NCBI GenBank assembly: GCA_021106775.1
Contig: JAIOTL010000068.1
Coordinates: forward strand, 1 to 10,213
Length of the DNA stretch: 10,213 bases
DNA from: Planctomycetota bacterium
GTDB lineage: Bacteria; Planctomycetota; UBA8742; SKZP01; JAIOTL01
Direction of reading: 5' to 3'
Position 1 is the first letter of the stretch, and each line of letters opens with the position of its first letter. The notes under the pieces are model-generated. The model did not search any database and had not been told where the DNA came from. It was given only the letters and a program-made list of their open reading frames with translations. The translations under genes were made by a program, and so were the position numbers. Shown here piece after piece: positions 1,524-10,213 of this stretch.

Positions 1524-2651
1524 ATGATACACGGTGGAATTCCGAAGACAAGAATCGCACATAGAAAAAATGATTCCAAAAAAGGAGGTCTGCTTTTCTT
1601 AACGCTTGTGATGCTCTGCGTAGGTGGGCTAATGATTGTGTTGTTTAGTGGTGGTGAAGAAGGTGAGGATGTTGTTTTGGACAACAGCAACAGTATAAAC
1701 TTACCCTCAAGCGATACAATGGATAGCTTTTCTGATTTAGCAACAAATGACTCTGAAACAATTGGGGCTAGTGATGTTACATCCTCGGATGAACCTGAAG
1801 AAGGGGAATCGGATGCGCCTGATTTCTTTGAGCATAAAATTAAGAGTGGTGAAAATTTCACTGTACTTGCGAAGAAATACTACAACGACACACGAAAAAC
1901 ACACGTTATTGTGAAAGCAAATCCTAATGTGAATCCAAAAAAACTGCAGATTGGGCAGAAAATTATTGTGCCTAATCTCAACAAGAAGAAAGCAACCGAG
2001 GAATCTGCTCACTCGAACACATCTTCAGTGAATTCAACATCAGGCTCAAATAATGGTGTTGATTTGAAAGCATGGAAAGAATTCAATAACAAAAATGAAA
2101 ATAAGAAATCCTCTGGTGAGAAGAAGAACCATCCTTTTCACCCCTTCGGTCGCCAGGAACAACCTGAAGTGCCTGATGATGAAAATGTAGGTTCGCTTGT
2201 AAAAGTTGTTATACGTGAAAAAACTACACATTATGCTTCTCAGGGTGACTCATCAATTGGACTTGCGTTGCAGTATTATGGAAGTTACAAATTGAAATCT
2301 TTGATAGAAAAAGCGAATCCGGGTATTGATTGGTATAATCTTAAAGGCGGTGAAAAGATAATTATACCTGAATATTCTGAGGAGAAGGTTCGTTCACCCA
2401 AGCCTGAGAAGGATTTAAGCCAAAAAAGGGATGAAACAAGCGGTGACCCGGTTATTGAAGAGGAAAAACCTTCTAAACCTTCAGAAAATGCAGACTATGA
2501 GATGTACACCGTTCAGAAGGATGAATCGCTTTGGGTAATAGCAAAGAAAAAGCTTGGAAATGGGATTAGATACAAGGAAATTATGAAGCTCAACAATATG
2601 ACCAGTGATGTAGTTAATGAGGGTATGCGGATTAAAATTCCGAAAAGATAA
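1524..2651 (+). CDS. Membrane-anchored protein with three LysM domains
   Basis: The protein has 375 residues. The ATG at 1524 is preferred over one at 1512 because GGAGG (1514-1518) overlaps the latter and sits 5 nt before the former. A basic N-terminus (residues 1-20, several Lys/Arg) is followed by one transmembrane helix at about 22-41, so the bulk should lie outside the inner membrane. LysM 1 is at about 103-150 (KSGENFTVLAKKYY, then KANPNVNPKKLQIGQKIIVP). LysM 2 at about 226-282 is degenerate at its start but ends in KANPGIDWYNLKGGEKIIIP. LysM 3 at 327-373 is canonical (YTVQKDESLWVIAKKKLG) and forms the extreme C-terminus. The linkers are Ser/Glu/Lys/Pro-rich and low-complexity. LysM binds N-acetylglucosamine of peptidoglycan, so a wall-binding anchor is inferred. 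No catalytic domain is present. The gene ends at its own terminator. Confidence 0.92.
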   Translation: MIHGGIPKTRIAHRKNDSKKGGLLFLTLVMLCVGGLMIVLFSGGEEGEDVVLDNSNSINLPSSDTMDSFSDLATNDSETIGASDVTSSDEPEEGESDAPDFFEHKIKSGENFTVLAKKYYNDTRKTHVIVKANPNVNPKKLQIGQKIIVPNLNKKKATEESAHSNTSSVNSTSGSNNGVDLKAWKEFNNKNENKKSSGEKKNHPFHPFGRQEQPEVPDDENVGSLVKVVIREKTTHYASQGDSSIGLALQYYGSYKLKSLIEKANPGIDWYNLKGGEKIIIPEYSEEKVRSPKPEKDLSQKRDETSGDPVIEEEKPSKPSENADYEMYTVQKDESLWVIAKKKLGNGIRYKEIMKLNNMTSDVVNEGMRIKIPKR

Positions 2652-2672
2652 AACTTCATCTTGATTTGCATG

Positions 2673-2707
2673 AAAAAGATTCCCGATTCAGTCGGGAATC
2701 TTTTTTT
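2673..2707 (+). terminator. Rho-independent terminator of the LysM gene
   Basis: A perfect 14-bp stem (2673-2686 with 2692-2705, core GATTCCCGA/TCGGGAATC) has a 5-nt loop TTCAG and a T-run at 2701-2707. The outer A:T pairs overlap the T-run, so the working stem is about 9-10 bp. It starts 22 nt after the LysM stop codon. The A-run on the 5' side could make it act in both directions. Confidence 0.93.
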
Positions 2708-2719
2708 AGATTAATAATG

Positions 2720-2741
2720 TTTACATTCTAAAACGTGTAAA
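2720..2741. promoter_or_regulatory. Dyad TTTACA-N10-TGTAAA, operator-like
   Basis: Two perfectly complementary hexamers (2720-2725 and 2736-2741) are separated by 10 nt, the geometry of many dimeric regulators. It lies 13 nt after the LysM terminator and about 180 bp upstream of the small-RNA promoter. The local base composition is very AT-rich, so chance is a real alternative. Confidence 0.2.
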
Positions 2742-2880
2742 ATTTGTTGGACATAAATTAATATATCCCTTAAAATCGCTCAATAAAGCATCTTTTCTAA
2801 TTCATTTCAAAACCACATTAGTTAAATTAAATTATTTTATGTCTAAATTATTGGACAACGAAATTGTTTAATCTTCTATA

Positions 2881-2900
2881 AGTGCTTGATTTTAGTGCTT
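2881..2900 (+). repeat. Two AGTGCTT direct repeats upstream of the small-RNA promoter
   Basis: AGTGCTT occurs at 2881-2887 and 2894-2900, 13 nt start to start. A third partial copy (AGTGCT, 2963-2968) lies inside the predicted RNA. The pair ends 17 nt before the -24 element. An activator would fit here, but sigma-54 activators usually bind further upstream and the repeats are short. Confidence 0.3.
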
Positions 2901-2917
2901 TTATGAAAAAAAGTTCT

Positions 2918-2940
2918 TTGGCATCAAAATTGCATATAAT
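2918..2940 (+). promoter_or_regulatory. Sigma-54-like -24/-12 promoter overlapping a perfect TATAAT
   Basis: TTGGCATCAAAATTGC at 2918-2933 matches the sigma-54 consensus TTGGCACG-N4-TTGC except in the two positions after GGCA. The invariant GG (2920-2921) and GC (2932-2933) are exactly 10 nt apart. A perfect sigma-70 -10 hexamer TATAAT follows at 2935-2940, with TG two bases before it (near-extended -10) but no good -35. Both readings predict a start at about 2943-2948, immediately before the folded RNA. Either factor, or both, could be used; rpoN cannot be seen in this window. Confidence 0.6.
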
Positions 2941-2943
2941 AAG

Positions 2944-3054
2944 CAGTTCTCAGCATTATTGAAGTGCTCTCTTGATTGCCCATCATCACTTCAGAAATAT
3001 ATGCCCAATGCTGGAAACATATCTGAGCCTGTTTGCCCGCAGGCTCTTTTTTTT
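2944..3054 (+). ncRNA. Predicted structured small RNA of about 110 nt, family not recognised
   Basis: The RNA is bounded by a promoter at 2918-2940 and an intrinsic terminator ending at 3054. Helix P1 pairs CAGCATT (2951-2957) with AATGCTG (3007-3013), a perfect 7 bp. Nested in it, P2 pairs TGAAGTG (2960-2966) with CACTTCA (2987-2993), also 7 bp, closing a 20-nt loop. The terminator hairpin follows after an 11-nt linker. Three TGCCC pentamers lie in predicted unpaired parts: the P2 loop (2977-2981), the P1 internal strand (3002-3006) and the terminator loop (3034-3038). Repeated C-rich loops are known from sRNAs that bind G-rich ribosome sites, such as RsaE/RoxS, which suggests a trans-acting regulator. 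There is no reading frame with a ribosome site. It does not fit 6S RNA, since there is no long closing stem or large central bubble. The 5' end is uncertain by a few nt. Confidence 0.62.
3025..3054 (+). terminator. Rho-independent terminator of the small RNA
   Basis: GAGCCTG (3025-3031) pairs with CAGGCTC (3040-3046) around an 8-nt loop TTTGCCCG, followed directly by eight T (3047-3054). The T-run places it on the plus strand. It cannot serve the aminotransferase gene, which converges from the other side, because that orientation lacks a T-run. The LysM gene already has its own terminator 320 bp upstream, so this one implies a separate transcript. Confidence 0.92.
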
Positions 3055-3138
3055 GTGGGTAAACCAACTTAAGTTTCCGTCCAATTTACCTATTCCTCGT
3101 AATCACCATGTTTCGCAGAGAAAAAGTACCAATGATAC

Positions 3139-3153
3139 CTCAGAATGACAGGG
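3139..3153. repeat. CTCAGAATGACAGGG motif, possible relic of a dispersed intergenic repeat
   Basis: The 15-mer matches the end of a palindromic intergenic repeat that recurs in many unrelated bacterial genomes, typically as TTCGC...TCAGAATGACAGG. Here a TTTCGC lies at 3111-3116 but the expected complementary arm is not intact, so it would be a decayed copy. Recognition is from memory of the motif only. Confidence 0.3.
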
Positions 3154-3194
3154 TCAGTATTTCTGCACAATCGTTGGGTAAAATAAACTGAAAT

Positions 3195-4385
3195 TTAGAG
3201 GAATTTGGCAAGATTCTGCAGGCGATAACAGGCTTCCTCGATTTCCTCGATTGTCGGCACAAGAGCAAACCGAACATAATTCTCACCGGGATTGCTACCT
3301 GAATCACAATTCTGACTCAGCGCAGCACCAGGTGTACAAACTATGCCTATCTCAGGTTTCAGCAGGATTTCCGTAAACTCCTTACCGGTCAAACCTTCAG
3401 GTGCTTTCTGCCAAACATATAGCGATGCCTGCGGTCGACAATCCTCAAGTCCAAGCTGAGCGAATGCATCGCAGAGAATTTCACGTTTTTTAAGCGTTAT
3501 TTCGCGCATTTCACGAACATGTTCTTCGTCCTTGAGTGCTTCAACTGCACCTGCTTGCACAAAATTTGGCGTTCCACTGTCTATATTTGTTTTCAGTGTC
3601 TTAAACGTGCTGACAGCTTCGGCATCACCAGCAACCCAGCCAATGCGCCAGCCTGTCATCATCGAACGTTTAGACATGGAAAAGAATGAAAGAACGTTTT
3701 CAGTTGAGACATTGAGAGCGGAAATCGGTGGATTGTCGAAATCAAAGTAAATCTCTGAATATGCTTCATCAGAACAAAGCAGAATCTCATGTTTATCGCA
3801 GAAATCCAACGCACGCTTGTAAAACTCGGCATCAGCGATGACACCGGTCGGCGAATTCGGGTAGCACAACCACAGTATTTTCGCTTTCTCAGCGACATTC
3901 TTCGGTATCTCATCAAAATCGACAAGGAATCTGTTATCTTCCGACAGTGATACAAAATGTACGTTTGCTCCTGCGAATTTCGCACCGAGATGATACGGCG
4001 GATATCCCGGGTTAGGCACAATGACATAATCTGAAGGATTCGCAAACGCAAGCGGGGCATTGAAAACCGCTTCTTTGGAACCAATTGTTGATGCAATATT
4101 TTTATTGTGGTCAAGTTCGACACCAAAACGCTTTTTTATCCAATTCGCTGCTTCAACCCTAAAAAACTCAGCACCCTGATATGCTGGATACCCCGCCCTA
4201 TCAAACTCATCAACTGCTGTTTTCAATCTTTCTTTGGCAACTTTAGGTGTCGGCAAAGTATGATCACCAACCCCGAAATCGATAACCTTGACACCAGCAG
4301 ATTTCAGCGTTTGAACCTGTTCATCAACAGAGGCGAAAGCATATTTCGGCAAACTTGACAGGATATTCGATTGTTTGATTTTCAT
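3195..4385 (-). CDS. PLP-dependent class I/II aminotransferase (AspC/DapL/DapC-like)
   Basis: An intact 396-residue fold-type I aminotransferase. PLP-binding Lys239 lies in SMSKRSMMTGWRIGW. Other cofactor residues are Asn177 (CYPNSPTG), Asp206 and Tyr209 (SDEAYS). Arg372 (ENYVRFALVP) is the usual substrate-carboxylate ligand. The N-terminal block DFGVGDHTLPTP and the glycine-rich turn TIGSKEA (100-106) are typical of the subgroup that includes LL-diaminopimelate and succinyl-diaminopimelate aminotransferases. A role in lysine/peptidoglycan precursor synthesis is therefore possible, but aspartate or alanine specificity is equally compatible. I chose the ATG at 4383-4385 (MKIKQSNIL), with GAGAG 4 nt upstream. 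A frame extension of 20 residues is rich in aromatic and basic residues and has no homology character. The gene is cytosolic, monocistronic, and divergent from the 4551 gene. Confidence 0.92.
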   Translation of the reverse strand: MKIKQSNILSSLPKYAFASVDEQVQTLKSAGVKVIDFGVGDHTLPTPKVAKERLKTAVDEFDRAGYPAYQGAEFFRVEAANWIKKRFGVELDHNKNIASTIGSKEAVFNAPLAFANPSDYVIVPNPGYPPYHLGAKFAGANVHFVSLSEDNRFLVDFDEIPKNVAEKAKILWLCYPNSPTGVIADAEFYKRALDFCDKHEILLCSDEAYSEIYFDFDNPPISALNVSTENVLSFFSMSKRSMMTGWRIGWVAGDAEAVSTFKTLKTNIDSGTPNFVQAGAVEALKDEEHVREMREITLKKREILCDAFAQLGLEDCRPQASLYVWQKAPEGLTGKEFTEILLKPEIGIVCTPGAALSQNCDSGSNPGENYVRFALVPTIEEIEEACYRLQNLAKFL

Positions 4386-4452: not shown

Positions 4453-4548
4453 ACAGGTAAACCTGTTTTTACTCACGACATCGGCATTAGGACTCAAGAG
4501 TTACTTGCCCTATTGGCAATGTTGTAAACTTAAAACAGAAAGTCTGCA
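4453..4548 (-). repeat. 96-bp palindrome-rich repeat, copy A
   Basis: Read on the minus strand it aligns without gaps to copy B (7910-8005): 84 of 96 positions are identical. Conserved blocks include TGCAGACTTTCTG, TTTAAGTTTACAACATTG, TAACTCTTGAGTCCTA and CAGGTTTACCTGT. Homology stops sharply at both ends. Internal dyads, in the same reading direction, are CAGA/TCTG; a 13-nt arm CATTGCCAATAGG against CCTAATGCCGATG (9 pairs plus one wobble) enclosing ACTCTTGAGT; and the perfect terminal palindrome ACAGGTAAACCTGT (4453-4466). It precedes the aminotransferase start by 67 nt and lies 2 nt from the 4551 gene on its other side. It has no coding capacity and no terminal inverted repeats of transposon type. 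Confidence 0.9.
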
Positions 4549-4550
4549 TT

Positions 4551-5096
4551 ATGAATAAACCAGACGAGAAATCCTATAAAAAACAATCGAATCCAAGTGG
4601 AAGAAGTGAAAAAAAATCTTCTGAAAAATCGCGAAGATATTATAAAAGCTCCAGTCCAAAAGAACCGTGGTATCTCAAACTCATTTTTTGGACACTTGTA
4701 ACCATTCTAGTTGTAGGTGGTGGTTTTGCTGGGTTCGTCATGATTAATAAACTCAACCTAAATCAGGAAGCTCGAACCATTGAGATTGAAATTGACGAAC
4801 TAATCGTTAATTTCCAGGACAAAATATATCTGGAATCAGACAAAATCATCGATAAAGAGTTTGAGGATGCTCGAAAACTTGCCTTTGAGGGAAAAGAAAT
4901 ATCAGATAAAATCGCGCATTTGATTGAAGTATATTTGAAGAAATATGATGAGAATATTGAAGGATTCATAAGGTTTGTGGAGCATAAAGAAAAATACGAA
5001 AGTCTATACAAAAAGTTTATCGAACTAAACAAAGATGACCCTCGTTATCACAAAGATAATATTCAAACTATGCCGAATAACGAAAACAGCAGATAA
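4551..5096 (+). CDS. Unknown single-pass membrane protein with helical extracytoplasmic domain
   Basis: The protein has 181 residues and I recognise no family. Residues 1-42 are strongly basic and Ser/Lys-rich, hence cytoplasmic and probably disordered. Residues 43-66 form one transmembrane helix with a Gly-rich half (VVGGGFAGFV). Residues 70-163 are charged (Glu/Lys/Asp/Ile) with heptad-like spacing and should be mostly alpha-helical, perhaps a short coiled coil or helical bundle outside the membrane. The Asn/Asp-rich end is polar. The start lies 2 nt after repeat copy A and has only a weak ribosome site (AGAAAG, 4537-4542). The stop codon overlaps the next start by one base (TAATG, 5094-5098), so translation is probably coupled to the phosphoesterase. 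Its layout, basic tail then helix then outside domain, resembles the LysM and 705-residue proteins nearby. Confidence 0.85.
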   Translation: MNKPDEKSYKKQSNPSGRSEKKSSEKSRRYYKSSSPKEPWYLKLIFWTLVTILVVGGGFAGFVMINKLNLNQEARTIEIEIDELIVNFQDKIYLESDKIIDKEFEDARKLAFEGKEISDKIAHLIEVYLKKYDENIEGFIRFVEHKEKYESLYKKFIELNKDDPRYHKDNIQTMPNNENSR

Positions 5097-5629
5097 TGAA
5101 CACAAATCAACTATTACTTGGTATACTTTCTGACAATCACGGCGAGAATTATCAAGTGATTGAAGATACTTTGTGCGATTGCGACGCAATTTTGCATGCT
5201 GGCGACGTCGGGCAATTCAAAATTCTCAAGAGTTTGAATAGTCTCTCCATACCACTTTATGTTGCAACAGGGAATAATGATCGTGCTATGGTTCGGCAAT
5301 TCAGCAAGGAGTTTAAAATGCTGACATTTGATAAAGTCGGCTTAAGAGTGCTGATGACACACGACCCAGGGGCTTACAATCCTTACGTTCTTGAAGATCC
5401 ACCGAAGCGAATTCTTGAAAAGATTGACGAATTCAAACCTCATCTCTTTGTTTTTGGTCACTGGCACATAAGATATGCTGAATTTCACAAAGGAATCTAC
5501 TGTTTCAATCCGGGTTCTGTAACAAAGAAATATTGTCGTGATGGAAAACCGGGATTCTCTAAAATATTGGTTAGGAAAGCGTCCAATAACGATAAATTTT
5601 CGTTTGAACCTGAATATTTCAACCTGTAA
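5096..5629 (+). CDS. YfcE/MJ0936-type metallophosphoesterase
   Basis: The protein has 177 residues, the normal length of this compact calcineurin-like family, and every metal-binding motif is present: SDNHG (Asp13, His15), HAGDVG (Asp37), GNND (Asn60, followed by Asp62), THD (His89) and GHWH (His122, His124), followed by NPGS (138-141). Known relatives are dimeric Mn/Ni-dependent phosphodiesterases active on artificial phosphodiester substrates; physiological targets are mostly unknown. It is a cytosolic protein with no signal peptide. The ATG at 5096 overlaps the TAA of the membrane protein gene, and no separate ribosome site is needed. The pairing suggests that the phosphoesterase works with, or is placed near, that membrane protein, but this is inference. 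No terminator follows, and the next gene begins 87 nt downstream. Confidence 0.94.
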   Translation: MNTNQLLLGILSDNHGENYQVIEDTLCDCDAILHAGDVGQFKILKSLNSLSIPLYVATGNNDRAMVRQFSKEFKMLTFDKVGLRVLMTHDPGAYNPYVLEDPPKRILEKIDEFKPHLFVFGHWHIRYAEFHKGIYCFNPGSVTKKYCRDGKPGFSKILVRKASNNDKFSFEPEYFNL

Positions 5630-5631
5630 AT

Positions 5632-5693
5632 TTGATTCCGAACAATCAAGAAAGATTTTCGTTATATAAATTTAGTAATATGATTAATCTTTC
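5632..5693 (+). promoter_or_regulatory. Two inverted repeats in the leader of the 705-residue gene
   Basis: The 87-nt gap holds TTGATT/AATCAA (5632-5637 with 5644-5649, 6-nt loop) and a perfect 8-bp pair GAAAGATT/AATCTTTC (5650-5657 with 5686-5693, 28 nt apart). The second ends 14 nt before GGAG. They could form a leader structure or operator. AT-richness makes chance plausible, and no convincing promoter was found here. Confidence 0.25.
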
Positions 5694-5716
5694 ATCAACT
5701 GTATCTGGAGTAAAGA

Positions 5717-7834
5717 ATGTTCAATTTCGGCATAAAGGATAAAAAAGTACATTTCAAACTAACTGGTGATAATAAAAGGAGTTCGAGTGGCAAAGGAGCG
5801 TTCAAGCTCAATTTTATGAGAGAGAATAAAGCAAAAAGCAATCAGCGTGAAGTAGATTCGCCGTTATTTGGGAAAATGGTTGTGCCTGACCAGCGCAAAT
5901 TTCTTGGAATGAGTAAAAAGATGCAGTTCAGATTTTACTTACTAATTATCGCAATTATTGGTGCTGCGTTATTGGTTGGTAATAATCTGCTAGCTACATT
6001 TGCGGAAATCAACGAATCTCGAAGAGAAGGCTCAGACACTTCCGAATTTGACGCGCTCCGGGGATTATACACAGAGCGTGAAGGTGACAGTTCTTTGTCG
6101 CCAAATTTCGGTATTGTTGAGGAAGATGCAAGTGATAATCCGGACTTTCAGCTTCCATCCTCGGACCCGCTTGTTTCTGTAGATGAATCCGATATTGAAA
6201 CCTTGTCAAATGACACTACCGAGGAGAAACCTTCTCCGAAACCAGATTCTGCGACCGAAAAAAACACAGAATCGGATGCAAAAAATGATGACCCTTTAGA
6301 GAAATTTGAAATTGATGACAAAGATGTTCCACGTGATGAGCATGGCTTGAAACCTCAGGTTACTTTGCCCGTAGGTGTTTATGATAAAGTCGATTATAAT
6401 GCTGACGAGAATCCTGCATTTCATGCTGAACTATTAGGGAAAATGAACCTTCTTGACGCGCTTCAAGTGAAAAAACTCGCAAATCCCTATAAACAAATTA
6501 AGGCTGAGGGCGAGAAAATCGACACATGGTACAAAACATACAAAAATTCAAGCAAACTCAAGGATTATACCGGTCGCATATTCGAAATAGAGGCGACTAT
6601 TTTCAAACTTGAGAAAAAGCCATGTGAATATTTCAACATTAAAAGCAGCGACATAAACGGTCAGACACATATTTGGCAGGGGATTCTCGCATTTCGATAT
6701 CTGGTGTCATATCCGGTTGGTAACAAGCTTGATGAAAAACTTCAAGACGAGCTTGGTTTCGTTTCGTTTACTGCACTTAAACTTCCTGATTGGATTACAC
6801 CTGGGCGTGTTTACGATGAAAAAGCTCTACCACTGCGTGTGAAATGCGCAGGAGCGTTTTACGGTGTCCCTTACGTTGACCCGAATGTCCTTGAGGGTGT
6901 GAAGCAGGATTCGATATCAATGCCGCATATAGTTTTGGGCGTAACAGAACAGGTGGATTCACTCAAACCGGTTATTGATAATGAACTAATAAATAGAATT
7001 TTCGACGGTAACAGTTACACGATGCAGAAAGTGCCGATTATCGCGCTCTTAAATTTGCTTTACTCAATAAAATTCATGCCCGAAGAAAAAATCGAAGAAC
7101 TTATCAAAAACTATGACCCGTCAATCGGATATTTCGATTTGCTCAATAATCCTCCGGTTTTCCGCAAGGTTTCACCTGTTGTTCGATTCATCGGCGAGTT
7201 GGGTCCGATTGTCAGAGAAACTCAGCCTATGAAGCGATTTGTCAACATTCGACCGAATCCCTACAATATTAGAAGTTTCAAACTCGGTGCGCTTAGGATT
7301 ACAAAATATGATAAACCCCGAAATGTCATCTTTGATACGCTGAATGTTGAGATTATCAATCCGCACACTGGCAAGTATGTTTCTGAAGGGACATCGATTT
7401 GTCCGGAAACAGGTAAGAAAATTGATAAAGCTTATTTGACTGCAGGCGATTCAGTTGAAATTTACGGTTACATGCTCTTCAATTGGCGATACCTTTCACA
7501 GGATGGCGATTTTATCACCAACCCGAGAATTGTTGCTCTGAAGGTCAGACAGATTGTGTCAACACCGGAAAATGTCAGCAGCATCAAGTGGATTTTTCTG
7601 GCGATTGTCATTATCGTAATCGTAATTGTAATCATACTTATGAAAAAAGAGCGTAAAAATGCTACTGAGTTTCGCAAGCAGTTTTTTCGCTCGCATATGC
7701 AGAAAGCTGGGCTGACAAAAGCAGGTGTAGCAAAAACTGGTGTGAATGCTGATGCTATACCTGATGAAAATACTGTTGATTCCTCAACCGAAGACAAAAA
7801 GAATGAAAACACAGATGCCGAGTCTGAAAAGTAG
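5717..7834 (+). CDS. Unknown 705-residue envelope protein with a transmembrane helix at each end
   Basis: I do not recognise a family. The start has GGAG at 5707-5710, 6 nt upstream. Residues 1-70 are basic and cytoplasmic, and helix 1 spans about 72-94. An acidic Ser/Asp/Glu/Pro linker (about 98-215) leads to a large mixed domain (about 220-620). Helix 2 spans 624-642, an almost pure Ile/Val run. A cytoplasmic tail of 63 residues is basic, then acidic. The predicted topology is both ends inside with about 530 residues outside. Two stretches look alike: GRIFEIEATIF...IWQGILAFRYL (286-329) and LGALRITKYDKP...VEIYGYMLFNWRYL (523-593), hinting at a duplicated beta domain. Three Cys (303, 377, 562) do not form an obvious metal motif. 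No enzyme motif was seen. It follows the phosphoesterase by 87 nt on the same strand and may share its transcript. Confidence is high that it is a real gene; the function is unknown. Confidence 0.9.
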   Translation: MFNFGIKDKKVHFKLTGDNKRSSSGKGAFKLNFMRENKAKSNQREVDSPLFGKMVVPDQRKFLGMSKKMQFRFYLLIIAIIGAALLVGNNLLATFAEINESRREGSDTSEFDALRGLYTEREGDSSLSPNFGIVEEDASDNPDFQLPSSDPLVSVDESDIETLSNDTTEEKPSPKPDSATEKNTESDAKNDDPLEKFEIDDKDVPRDEHGLKPQVTLPVGVYDKVDYNADENPAFHAELLGKMNLLDALQVKKLANPYKQIKAEGEKIDTWYKTYKNSSKLKDYTGRIFEIEATIFKLEKKPCEYFNIKSSDINGQTHIWQGILAFRYLVSYPVGNKLDEKLQDELGFVSFTALKLPDWITPGRVYDEKALPLRVKCAGAFYGVPYVDPNVLEGVKQDSISMPHIVLGVTEQVDSLKPVIDNELINRIFDGNSYTMQKVPIIALLNLLYSIKFMPEEKIEELIKNYDPSIGYFDLLNNPPVFRKVSPVVRFIGELGPIVRETQPMKRFVNIRPNPYNIRSFKLGALRITKYDKPRNVIFDTLNVEIINPHTGKYVSEGTSICPETGKKIDKAYLTAGDSVEIYGYMLFNWRYLSQDGDFITNPRIVALKVRQIVSTPENVSSIKWIFLAIVIIVIVIVIILMKKERKNATEFRKQFFRSHMQKAGLTKAGVAKTGVNADAIPDENTVDSSTEDKKNENTDAESEK

Positions 7835-7909: not shown

Positions 7910-8005
7910 TGCAGACTTTCTGCTTTAAGTTTACAACATTGTCAATAGGTCAAATAACTCTTGAGTCCTACTGACAATGCTGTGTGTATAAGCAGGTTTA
8001 CCTGT
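7910..8005 (+). repeat. 96-bp palindrome-rich repeat, copy B
   Basis: This is the better-preserved copy. Hairpin 1 is GCAGA-CTT-TCTGC (7911-7923). Hairpin 2 pairs CATTGTCAATAGG (7937-7949) with CCTACTGACAATG (7967-7979), 12 of 13 positions, and encloses ACTCTTGAGT. Terminal dyad 3 is CAGGT-TT-ACCTG (7993-8004). It ends 8 nt before the phosphopantetheinyl transferase start, and its last bases run into the ribosome site GAGG (8006-8009). Copy A is oriented the same way relative to the aminotransferase. The element therefore lies in the 5' untranslated or promoter region of both genes, and could be a mobile palindromic unit or a control element. Confidence 0.9.
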
Positions 8006-8808: not shown

Positions 8809-8852
8809 CGTATTTGATATTAAATTGAAAAAGCAATAAAGGGCAATGAGTT

Positions 8853-10213
8853 ATGAAACAGAACATTCTTACAATGCTTGTTGTTTTGGTACTTTCATCG
8901 TTGGTTGTTTCCTGTGACATCGGAAATAACGTCAGTGTTGCGCTTGACATAAAGTTTTTCGAGTTTGACGAAATACTACCCGGTGAAACTTCCGAAAAAA
9001 TCTTTGTGCTGACGAATAAAACCGAAAGTGCGATTACAATATTCGATACAGAATTCAAAGGCAGTCATGCCAGTCAATTTAACGTTCTCGAAGGTTCTGC
9101 ACCACCTGAAATCGTAGTCGCAGCAAGTGGTATTCATAACATTAAAATCGAATTCGCACCTGAAATTCAAGGTGGACTTGCTTGGGCACAATTTAACATT
9201 TTCTTCAGGAATGTTGACGGTGAGAGCTTGAACATCATTATCAACCTCAAGGGTAAAGGTAAGCAGTTCAACGATATTCAAACGACCCCCGATTCACTGT
9301 ATTACGAAAAAACTGTGCTTGATGAAAATAAATCGAAAACAATCGCAATCTCCAATATCGATTACCTGTCACTTAATATCACAGAAATTTCAATCACAGG
9401 AACAGATTTCGAAATCATCTCAGGTTGGACAGACACACCTGTAATTCTGCAAAAAGACGAGTTTTTCGAAATAGTGATTTCATATAAACCACAGATTGAA
9501 GGATTTTCATCTGAGAATCTTTTAATCACTCACGATGACCCGAGTAAAACTTCCCCGCTTGAAGTTGCTCTAACCGGACATGCAATTGCACAACGCATTT
9601 ACACCATTTCCGCAGTTACGCGAGGGACAATATTTACGAAGCTTGAAGGTAATGAAGTTAGTGTTTTCAGAGGTACTGACGTTGATGCGCCCTATGATGA
9701 AGATTTCGTTAAAGTTCCAATAGGCTTCACTTTTCAGTTTTTCACATCGGATAACGCTGAAGTTTATATTGGTGCGAACGGTTTTCTATCTTTTGATGAG
9801 CCAGCATCGATGAATGCGCAAAACACAGAAATTGCCAGCACGGATGCTCCGTACAATTATATTGCTGTTCTCTGGGATGACCTGATTGTCGAGAATTATG
9901 GTGATGAGGACATGGTTTTGTATGAAACAACCGGTATTGCGCCGATGCGCGTGTTTACGGTTGAATGGCAGTCGTTAACTATTGTCAGCGGTGGGGAAAC
10001 GACACATGTAACTTTCGGGGTTCAGCTTTTTGAGGAGACAAACGAGATTTTGATGTATTACAGCAGCGACAACAATGTTTTGGACATGTCAGCGACAATA
10101 GGAATTGAGAACGAAAGCGGTAGGAATGGATTTATGGACATTGAAATGTTATCGCCCAATGTTATCGCGATTCCCGTGGATGATATGAAATTCACTCCCT
10201 CATGGCGTACGAC
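8853..10213 (+). CDS. Lipoprotein with two HYDIN/choice-of-anchor-D Ig-like domains, 3' part outside window
   Basis: The frame is open from ATG 8853 to the right edge, giving 453 residues without a stop. Residues 1-21 form a lipoprotein signal with lipobox VVSC (Cys21), followed by Asp22. Two ASPM-SPD-2-HYDIN-like Ig domains follow. Domain 1 (about 30-136) has IKIEFAPEIQGG and ends LKGKG. Domain 2 (about 143-244) has DEFFEIVISYKPQIEG and THDDPSKTSPLEVALTGHA. A third beta-rich domain (about 250-445) has VPIGFTFQFF, VYIGANGFLSF, YIAVLWDDL and ATIGIENESG, a pattern seen in secreted bacterial surface proteins whose name I cannot fix. The ribosome site is weak: GGG at 8841-8843, 9 nt from ATG. The likely location is an envelope surface or periplasmic scaffold. 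It is the functional counterpart of the lipoprotein at the window's left edge. Confidence 0.9.
   Translation, partial: MKQNILTMLVVLVLSSLVVSCDIGNNVSVALDIKFFEFDEILPGETSEKIFVLTNKTESAITIFDTEFKGSHASQFNVLEGSAPPEIVVAASGIHNIKIEFAPEIQGGLAWAQFNIFFRNVDGESLNIIINLKGKGKQFNDIQTTPDSLYYEKTVLDENKSKTIAISNIDYLSLNITEISITGTDFEIISGWTDTPVILQKDEFFEIVISYKPQIEGFSSENLLITHDDPSKTSPLEVALTGHAIAQRIYTISAVTRGTIFTKLEGNEVSVFRGTDVDAPYDEDFVKVPIGFTFQFFTSDNAEVYIGANGFLSFDEPASMNAQNTEIASTDAPYNYIAVLWDDLIVENYGDEDMVLYETTGIAPMRVFTVEWQSLTIVSGGETTHVTFGVQLFEETNEILMYYSSDNNVLDMSATIGIENESGRNGFMDIEMLSPNVIAIPVDDMKFTPSWRT

Follow-up and report, generated by a model that had tools for sequence, protein, structure and literature searches.

The locus considered here raises the question of whether a gap between two protein-coding genes of a Planctomycetota bacterium harbors a small RNA gene under the control of its own sigma-54-type promoter. 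Within the window (the whole 10,213-nucleotide stretch of DNA that was analyzed), this intergenic gap spans 2652-3194 (543 bp, 68% A+T) and is flanked by two convergent genes: a plus-strand gene for a LysM protein ending at 2651, and a minus-strand class I/II aminotransferase ORF whose end lies at 3195. Given this convergence, neither gene requires a promoter in the gap; moreover, since the LysM gene has its own terminator and the aminotransferase is on the opposite strand, a promoter at 2918-2934 is needed by no neighbor. The initial annotation had described the gap as lacking a protein gene, which agrees with a Pfam scan at E up to 1: no match was obtained for the four ORFs tested out of the five (of at least 20 aa) that overlap the putative sRNA unit. 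Downstream of the LysM terminator the plus strand presents, in this order, TTGGCATCAAAATTGCA, a TATAAT hexamer, two nested stems and a second strong terminator. The features, all on the plus strand, are:

2678..2703, plus strand: a further terminator hairpin, attributed to the LysM gene that precedes it; called at 2678-2700, on the plus strand only
2918..2934, plus strand: sigma-54-type -24/-12 promoter TTGGCATCAAAATTGCA, with a predicted +1 near 2945
2935..2940, plus strand: TATAAT, read from the sequence as a possible sigma-70 -10 with a start near 2947, without a -35
2945..3054, plus strand: predicted sRNA transcript of about 110 nt, with both its 5' and 3' ends predicted
2951..3013, plus strand: outer helix P1 of the fold, CAGCATT, pairing 2951-2957 with 3007-3013 (8 pairs including a flanking pair)
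2960..2993, plus strand: inner helix P2 of the fold, TGAAGTG, pairing 2960-2966 with 2987-2993 (8 pairs including a flanking pair)
2977..2981, plus strand: UGCCC copy 1, in the hairpin loop of P2, with a probability of being unpaired of at least 0.96 for four letters and of 0.5 for the last
3002..3006, plus strand: UGCCC copy 2, unpaired in the predicted fold, where it belongs to the 3' half of the internal loop
3025..3054, plus strand: intrinsic terminator from sequence and terminator call, an 8-bp stem at 3025-3046 followed by T8 at 3047-3054
3034..3038, plus strand: UGCCC copy 3, in the terminator loop, unpaired in the predicted fold

Promoter and terminator signals in the gap

The element at 2918-2934 has the exact GG-N10-GC geometry that had been ascribed to it, with GG at 2920-2921 and GC at 2932-2933, and conforms to the fuller pattern YTGGCA-N6-TTGCW. 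The geometry alone is uninformative, as bare GG-N10-GC is common: 34 instances in the window against a mean of 30.7 in 100 shuffles. The fuller site, in contrast, is rare: among 2000 shuffles of the gap TGGCAN6TTGCA was never encountered, TGGCAN6TTGC was seen in 0.35% and TGGYAN6TTGCW in 0.6%. For scoring we used a matrix derived from E. coli, built on the 42 ChIP-mapped sigma-54 sites that are intergenic and in sense orientation in the part of the source available to us (PMC4591121), leaving out 8 intergenic antisense sites. TTGGCATCAAAATTGCA attains 17.1 bits, more than 30 of the 42 E. coli sites scored leave-one-out; it is the top-scoring site of the window by this matrix, the runner-up reaching 10.9 bits. 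A first-order random model, in which 14 of 6,000,000 positions scored as high, gives an expectation of 0.048 such sites for the two strands of the window together and of 0.0013 for the plus strand of the gap. Hand-set consensus weights again place TTGGCATCAAAATTGCA first, with 22.5 of 24.5 and second place at 20.5. The promoter match thus exceeds chance. An upstream activator dyad was sought in 2709-2917, where the best repeat was matched or beaten in 102 of 150 shuffles; the candidate dyads, TGTCTAAATTATTGGACA at 2840 and the inverted pair GACATAAA, were dropped, the best upstream repeat being at chance level.

The strong intrinsic terminator at 3025-3054 had been held to be attributable to no flanking gene, and this attribution stands: the LysM gene has its own and the aminotransferase is transcribed in the opposite direction. 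Shuffling the window 60 times never produced a terminator this strong; the actual sequence contains two. Both lie on the plus strand of the gap, one directly after the LysM gene and the other closing the sRNA unit. The terminator, too, exceeds chance. Promoter and terminator are on the same strand, in the correct order, at a 91-bp spacing. As a control, 60 similar promoter strings (TTGGCA-N4-6-TTGCATATAAT) in viral contigs, each with at least 120 nt following, yielded 0 strict and 2 loose terminators 60-200 nt downstream; this control is imperfect, in that viral contigs differ from bacterial gaps and just 25 of the strings are spaced by the true six bases.

The promoter match, the terminator and the convergent gap devoid of a recognized gene are direct observations. 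Together they lead us to regard the unit as probably a sigma-54-dependent gene that stands alone and specifies an sRNA of about 110 nt, which probably acts by base-pairing, with UGCCC in three loops. It has its own promoter, its own terminator and, among the four of the five overlapping ORFs that were compared with Pfam only, no recognized coding frame. In mechanistic terms, a signal-activated enhancer-binding protein would remodel sigma-54 RNA polymerase at 2918-2934, both the activator and the use of sigma-54 being presumed for this host. Transcription from a predicted start near 2945 to the terminator would then release an RNA of about 110 nt. Our confidence is kept at a moderate level mainly because of base rates from other bacteria. 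In E. coli, according to the part of that study available to us, sigma-54 is frequently bound where no transcription follows, and of 50 intergenic sites 8 are directed away from adjacent genes (PMC4591121); in Salmonella a reporter was driven by 3 of 7 tested intergenic sites, in the comparable part of a second report (PMC3844500).

Two alternatives bear on the promoter itself. Bound sites in E. coli that are often transcriptionally inactive (PMC4591121, as far as available) would fit the view that TTGGCATCAAAATTGCA is a sigma-54 binding site without transcription, accompanied by an unrelated terminator or a remnant, with no functional transcript at all; the helices described below, which are not significant gap-wide, would fit it equally. 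This we hold to be improbable, in view of two individually rare elements being found in order, on one strand and suitably spaced, and of the absence of such an arrangement from all 60 control strings, among which 25 are correctly spaced. The other alternative retains the sRNA gene and has the housekeeping sigma drive it from TATAAT, the -24/-12 match being incidental or secondary. The initial annotation had a perfect TATAAT overlapping the -12 side and predicting almost the same start; the hexamer is indeed perfect and is spaced for a start near 2947, but it sits immediately 3' of the -12 element and adjoins rather than covers its GC. At distances of 16, 17 and 18 nt upstream of it, the hexamer in each case agrees with TTGACA at 1 of 6 positions, no promoter was called there, and by reading there is no exact extended -10. 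Moreover, at least one TATAAT occurs in 37% of the shuffled gaps, as against 0 to 0.6% for the sigma-54 site depending on strictness. A housekeeping promoter at TATAAT is possible, not supported, and the suggested dual promoter is weaker than it had been made to appear; we consider transcription by this route unlikely, if slightly less so than the lack of any transcript.

The predicted RNA and its possible modes of action

Under the preferred reading of a sigma-54-dependent sRNA gene, the RNA is predicted to fold into a two-tier 5' stem followed by the terminator hairpin. P1 and P2 are the sole 7-bp Watson-Crick stems within 2945-3024, and the predicted fold of 2945-3054 contains both, with 13 of their 14 pairs at a probability of at least 0.92 and one at 0.67. 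This fold has -29.3 kcal/mol (z -2.9; equaled by 1 of 200 shuffles), as compared with z -1.2 (21 of 200) for the 5' domain without the terminator and z -0.87 (41 of 200) for the longer stretch 2940-3060. It tolerates shifts of the 5' end; with the 3' end placed at 3060 the P1 pairs fall to 0.11-0.91, because the 3' flank competes. Two perfect 7-bp stems, one inside the other, arise in 0.4% of cases when 2945-3024 is shuffled 5000 times, and somewhere in 12.5% of 1000 shuffled gaps. Hence, the two nested helices reported earlier do exist, but on their own they are not compelling: as evidence they are weak, not significant gap-wide and suggestive only. This qualifies the earlier contention that the combination of elements is hard to explain by chance, which holds for the promoter and the terminator, each far above chance, and not for the helices. 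The proposal of a self-contained sigma-54-type sRNA gene as a whole remains the best-supported reading by virtue of promoter, terminator, order and gap, with the dual promoter and the helices as its weaker parts.

The sRNA unit contains three of the six plus-strand UGCCC copies in the window, all of them in predicted loops. Shuffling 2945-3046 yields a 5-mer present three times in 19% of cases, and one with at least three G/C letters in 8%; accordingly, we treat the triplication as a lead and not as a result. The RNA would most likely act in trans, its three single-stranded UGCCC copies pairing with GGGCA-type G-rich stretches of mRNAs, where both the pairing and the targets are conjectural. 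A more specific, and on our estimate improbable, version is that of a lineage-specific sRNA of the sigma-54 regulon in an uncultured bacterial lineage, whose three identical loops might either sponge an RNA-binding protein or pair with GGGCA near ribosome-binding sites; by analogy, and with the same low likelihood, this would amount to the logic of CrcZ realized through a new motif. Pairing of the RNA with nine start regions in the window gave none clearly above shuffles, the best being equaled by 34 of 200. GGGCA, the complement of UGCCC, is found within 8841-8855, ending 7 nt upstream of the ATG at 8853 of a gene for a protein with HYDIN/ASH-type domains. Pairing with this region was rejected as a candidate, with 47 of 200 shuffles equaling it; the other eight start regions were paired equally well by 34 to 182 of 200.

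The convergent layout, with the aminotransferase stop near 3195, also allows a cis-antisense action, in which the RNA would pair with a long 3' UTR of a read-through minus-strand aminotransferase mRNA and tune it under sigma-54. Such a role is compatible with the stand-alone gene preferred here rather than exclusive of it. It is possible because, across 2600-3300, a single and weak terminator-like site was called on the minus strand, at 3046-3025. The hairpin at 2678-2703 is, by reading, bordered by A and T runs and, judged by eye, may also work on the minus strand; it may thus terminate from both sides, letting the aminotransferase mRNA overlap the sRNA unit before minus-strand transcripts stop there. 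That a minus-strand mRNA reaches 3054 is, nevertheless, an assumption drawn from the layout of the signals, and we give this role little weight. Far less probable still is that the transcript encodes a short protein. Open frames at 2959-3072 and 2972-3148 would provide 37 or 58 codons from TTG, or fewer from the inner ATGs at 3001 and 3008. Both frames, however, cross the terminator hairpin and extend past the transcript end at 3054, and a comparison of the short proteins with Pfam, at E up to 1, gave no match.

Known sigma-54-driven RNAs and the search for relatives

The initial annotation recognized no RNA family here, and a search of the window with all 4227 Rfam 15 families likewise gave no match at gathering scores. 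At E up to 5, the region 2850-3110 gave four matches far below the cut-off, which we take as chance; none is GlmY/GlmZ, and two are snoRNA families on the opposite strand. Another, RyhB (RF00057), aligns weakly over the terminator with 13.8 bits (E 4.9), far under its 55-bit cut-off, the alignment consisting mainly of the hairpin and the T tail. No covariance-model match to GlmY/GlmZ, CrcZ, NrsZ or Qrr was obtained with Rfam 15, as far as these families are represented there. CrcZ has repeated motifs that are CA-rich, whereas the repeat here is UGCCC.

Several known sRNAs are driven by sigma-54. GlmY of Enterobacteriaceae has a sigma-54 promoter, and the E. coli glmY site TTGGCACAGTTACTGCA, in the part of the source available, has 11 of 17 letters in common with the present one, including TTGGCA and TGCA. 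The present candidate differs in that it lacks an Rfam match, a -35 and a demonstrated activator site. It resembles GlmY in promoter logic and is outside that family. As for the GlmY-type dual promoter, in which sigma-54 and sigma-70 share one start, TATAAT is present here without a -35. CrcZ and NrsZ of Pseudomonas are sRNAs commanded by activators, CbrB for the former and NtrC for the latter (PMC7602753, in the portion available), and Qrr of Vibrio is likewise sigma-54-dependent (PMC10162802, to the same extent); the candidate is without a match among the Rfam models. These named sigma-54-driven sRNAs (GlmY, CrcZ, NrsZ and Qrr), which do not constitute a full survey, are all gammaproteobacterial. 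A study of Flavobacterium psychrophilum (PMC9723704) describes a sigma-54 regulon as well as 45 independent transcripts that are not antisense, with no link stated between the two in its available part. Were a case clearly established in an uncultured lineage, it would broaden the known range of such sigma-54-sRNA wiring and give a handle on the sigma-54 regulon of that lineage; any further meaning would depend on the targets.

Relatives of the locus were sought through its neighbors and through its own sequence. Protein searches recovered relatives of the neighboring genes; for the aminotransferase, the best of those with a name stands at 84% over 70%. A genome-collection scan with this aminotransferase gave one locus, at 25% identity in a Hyphomicrobiaceae MAG, which is no kin. 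That MAG and 40 genomes around it (41 in all) have distant aminotransferases, at 33-35% identity in the best eight among the matches listed. A scan of viral contigs found the promoter string in 61, and a protein scan of viral contigs found no relative of the aminotransferase. BLAST of 2890-3062 against the collected loci recovered the promoter part together with some short chance-level fragments, with no RNA relative among them, and exact-pattern searches gave 0 hits each for P2 with its loop, the nested helices and the terminator. BLAST at E up to 10 gave 16 phage records (best E 0.2) and 2 plasmid records (best E 7), both taken as chance.

Elsewhere in the window, a 705-aa protein encoded at 5717-7834, membrane-anchored by its appearance, has no Pfam match, and the same is true of a 181-aa protein encoded near it at 4551-5096. 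A pair of 96-nt inverted repeats, at 4453-4548 and 7910-8005 and 88% complementary, brackets a three-gene plus-strand cluster at 4551-7834, with its arms ending within about 10 bp of the start codons at 4551 and 8014. The left arm has no match in plasmids, and a 25-base core no exact match in viral contigs. The pair contains the internal palindromes CAGGTAAACCTG and CATTGTCA...TGACAATG, of which the second is imperfect in the left arm, and resembles a small, mobile palindromic repeat element or the ends of an invertible segment.
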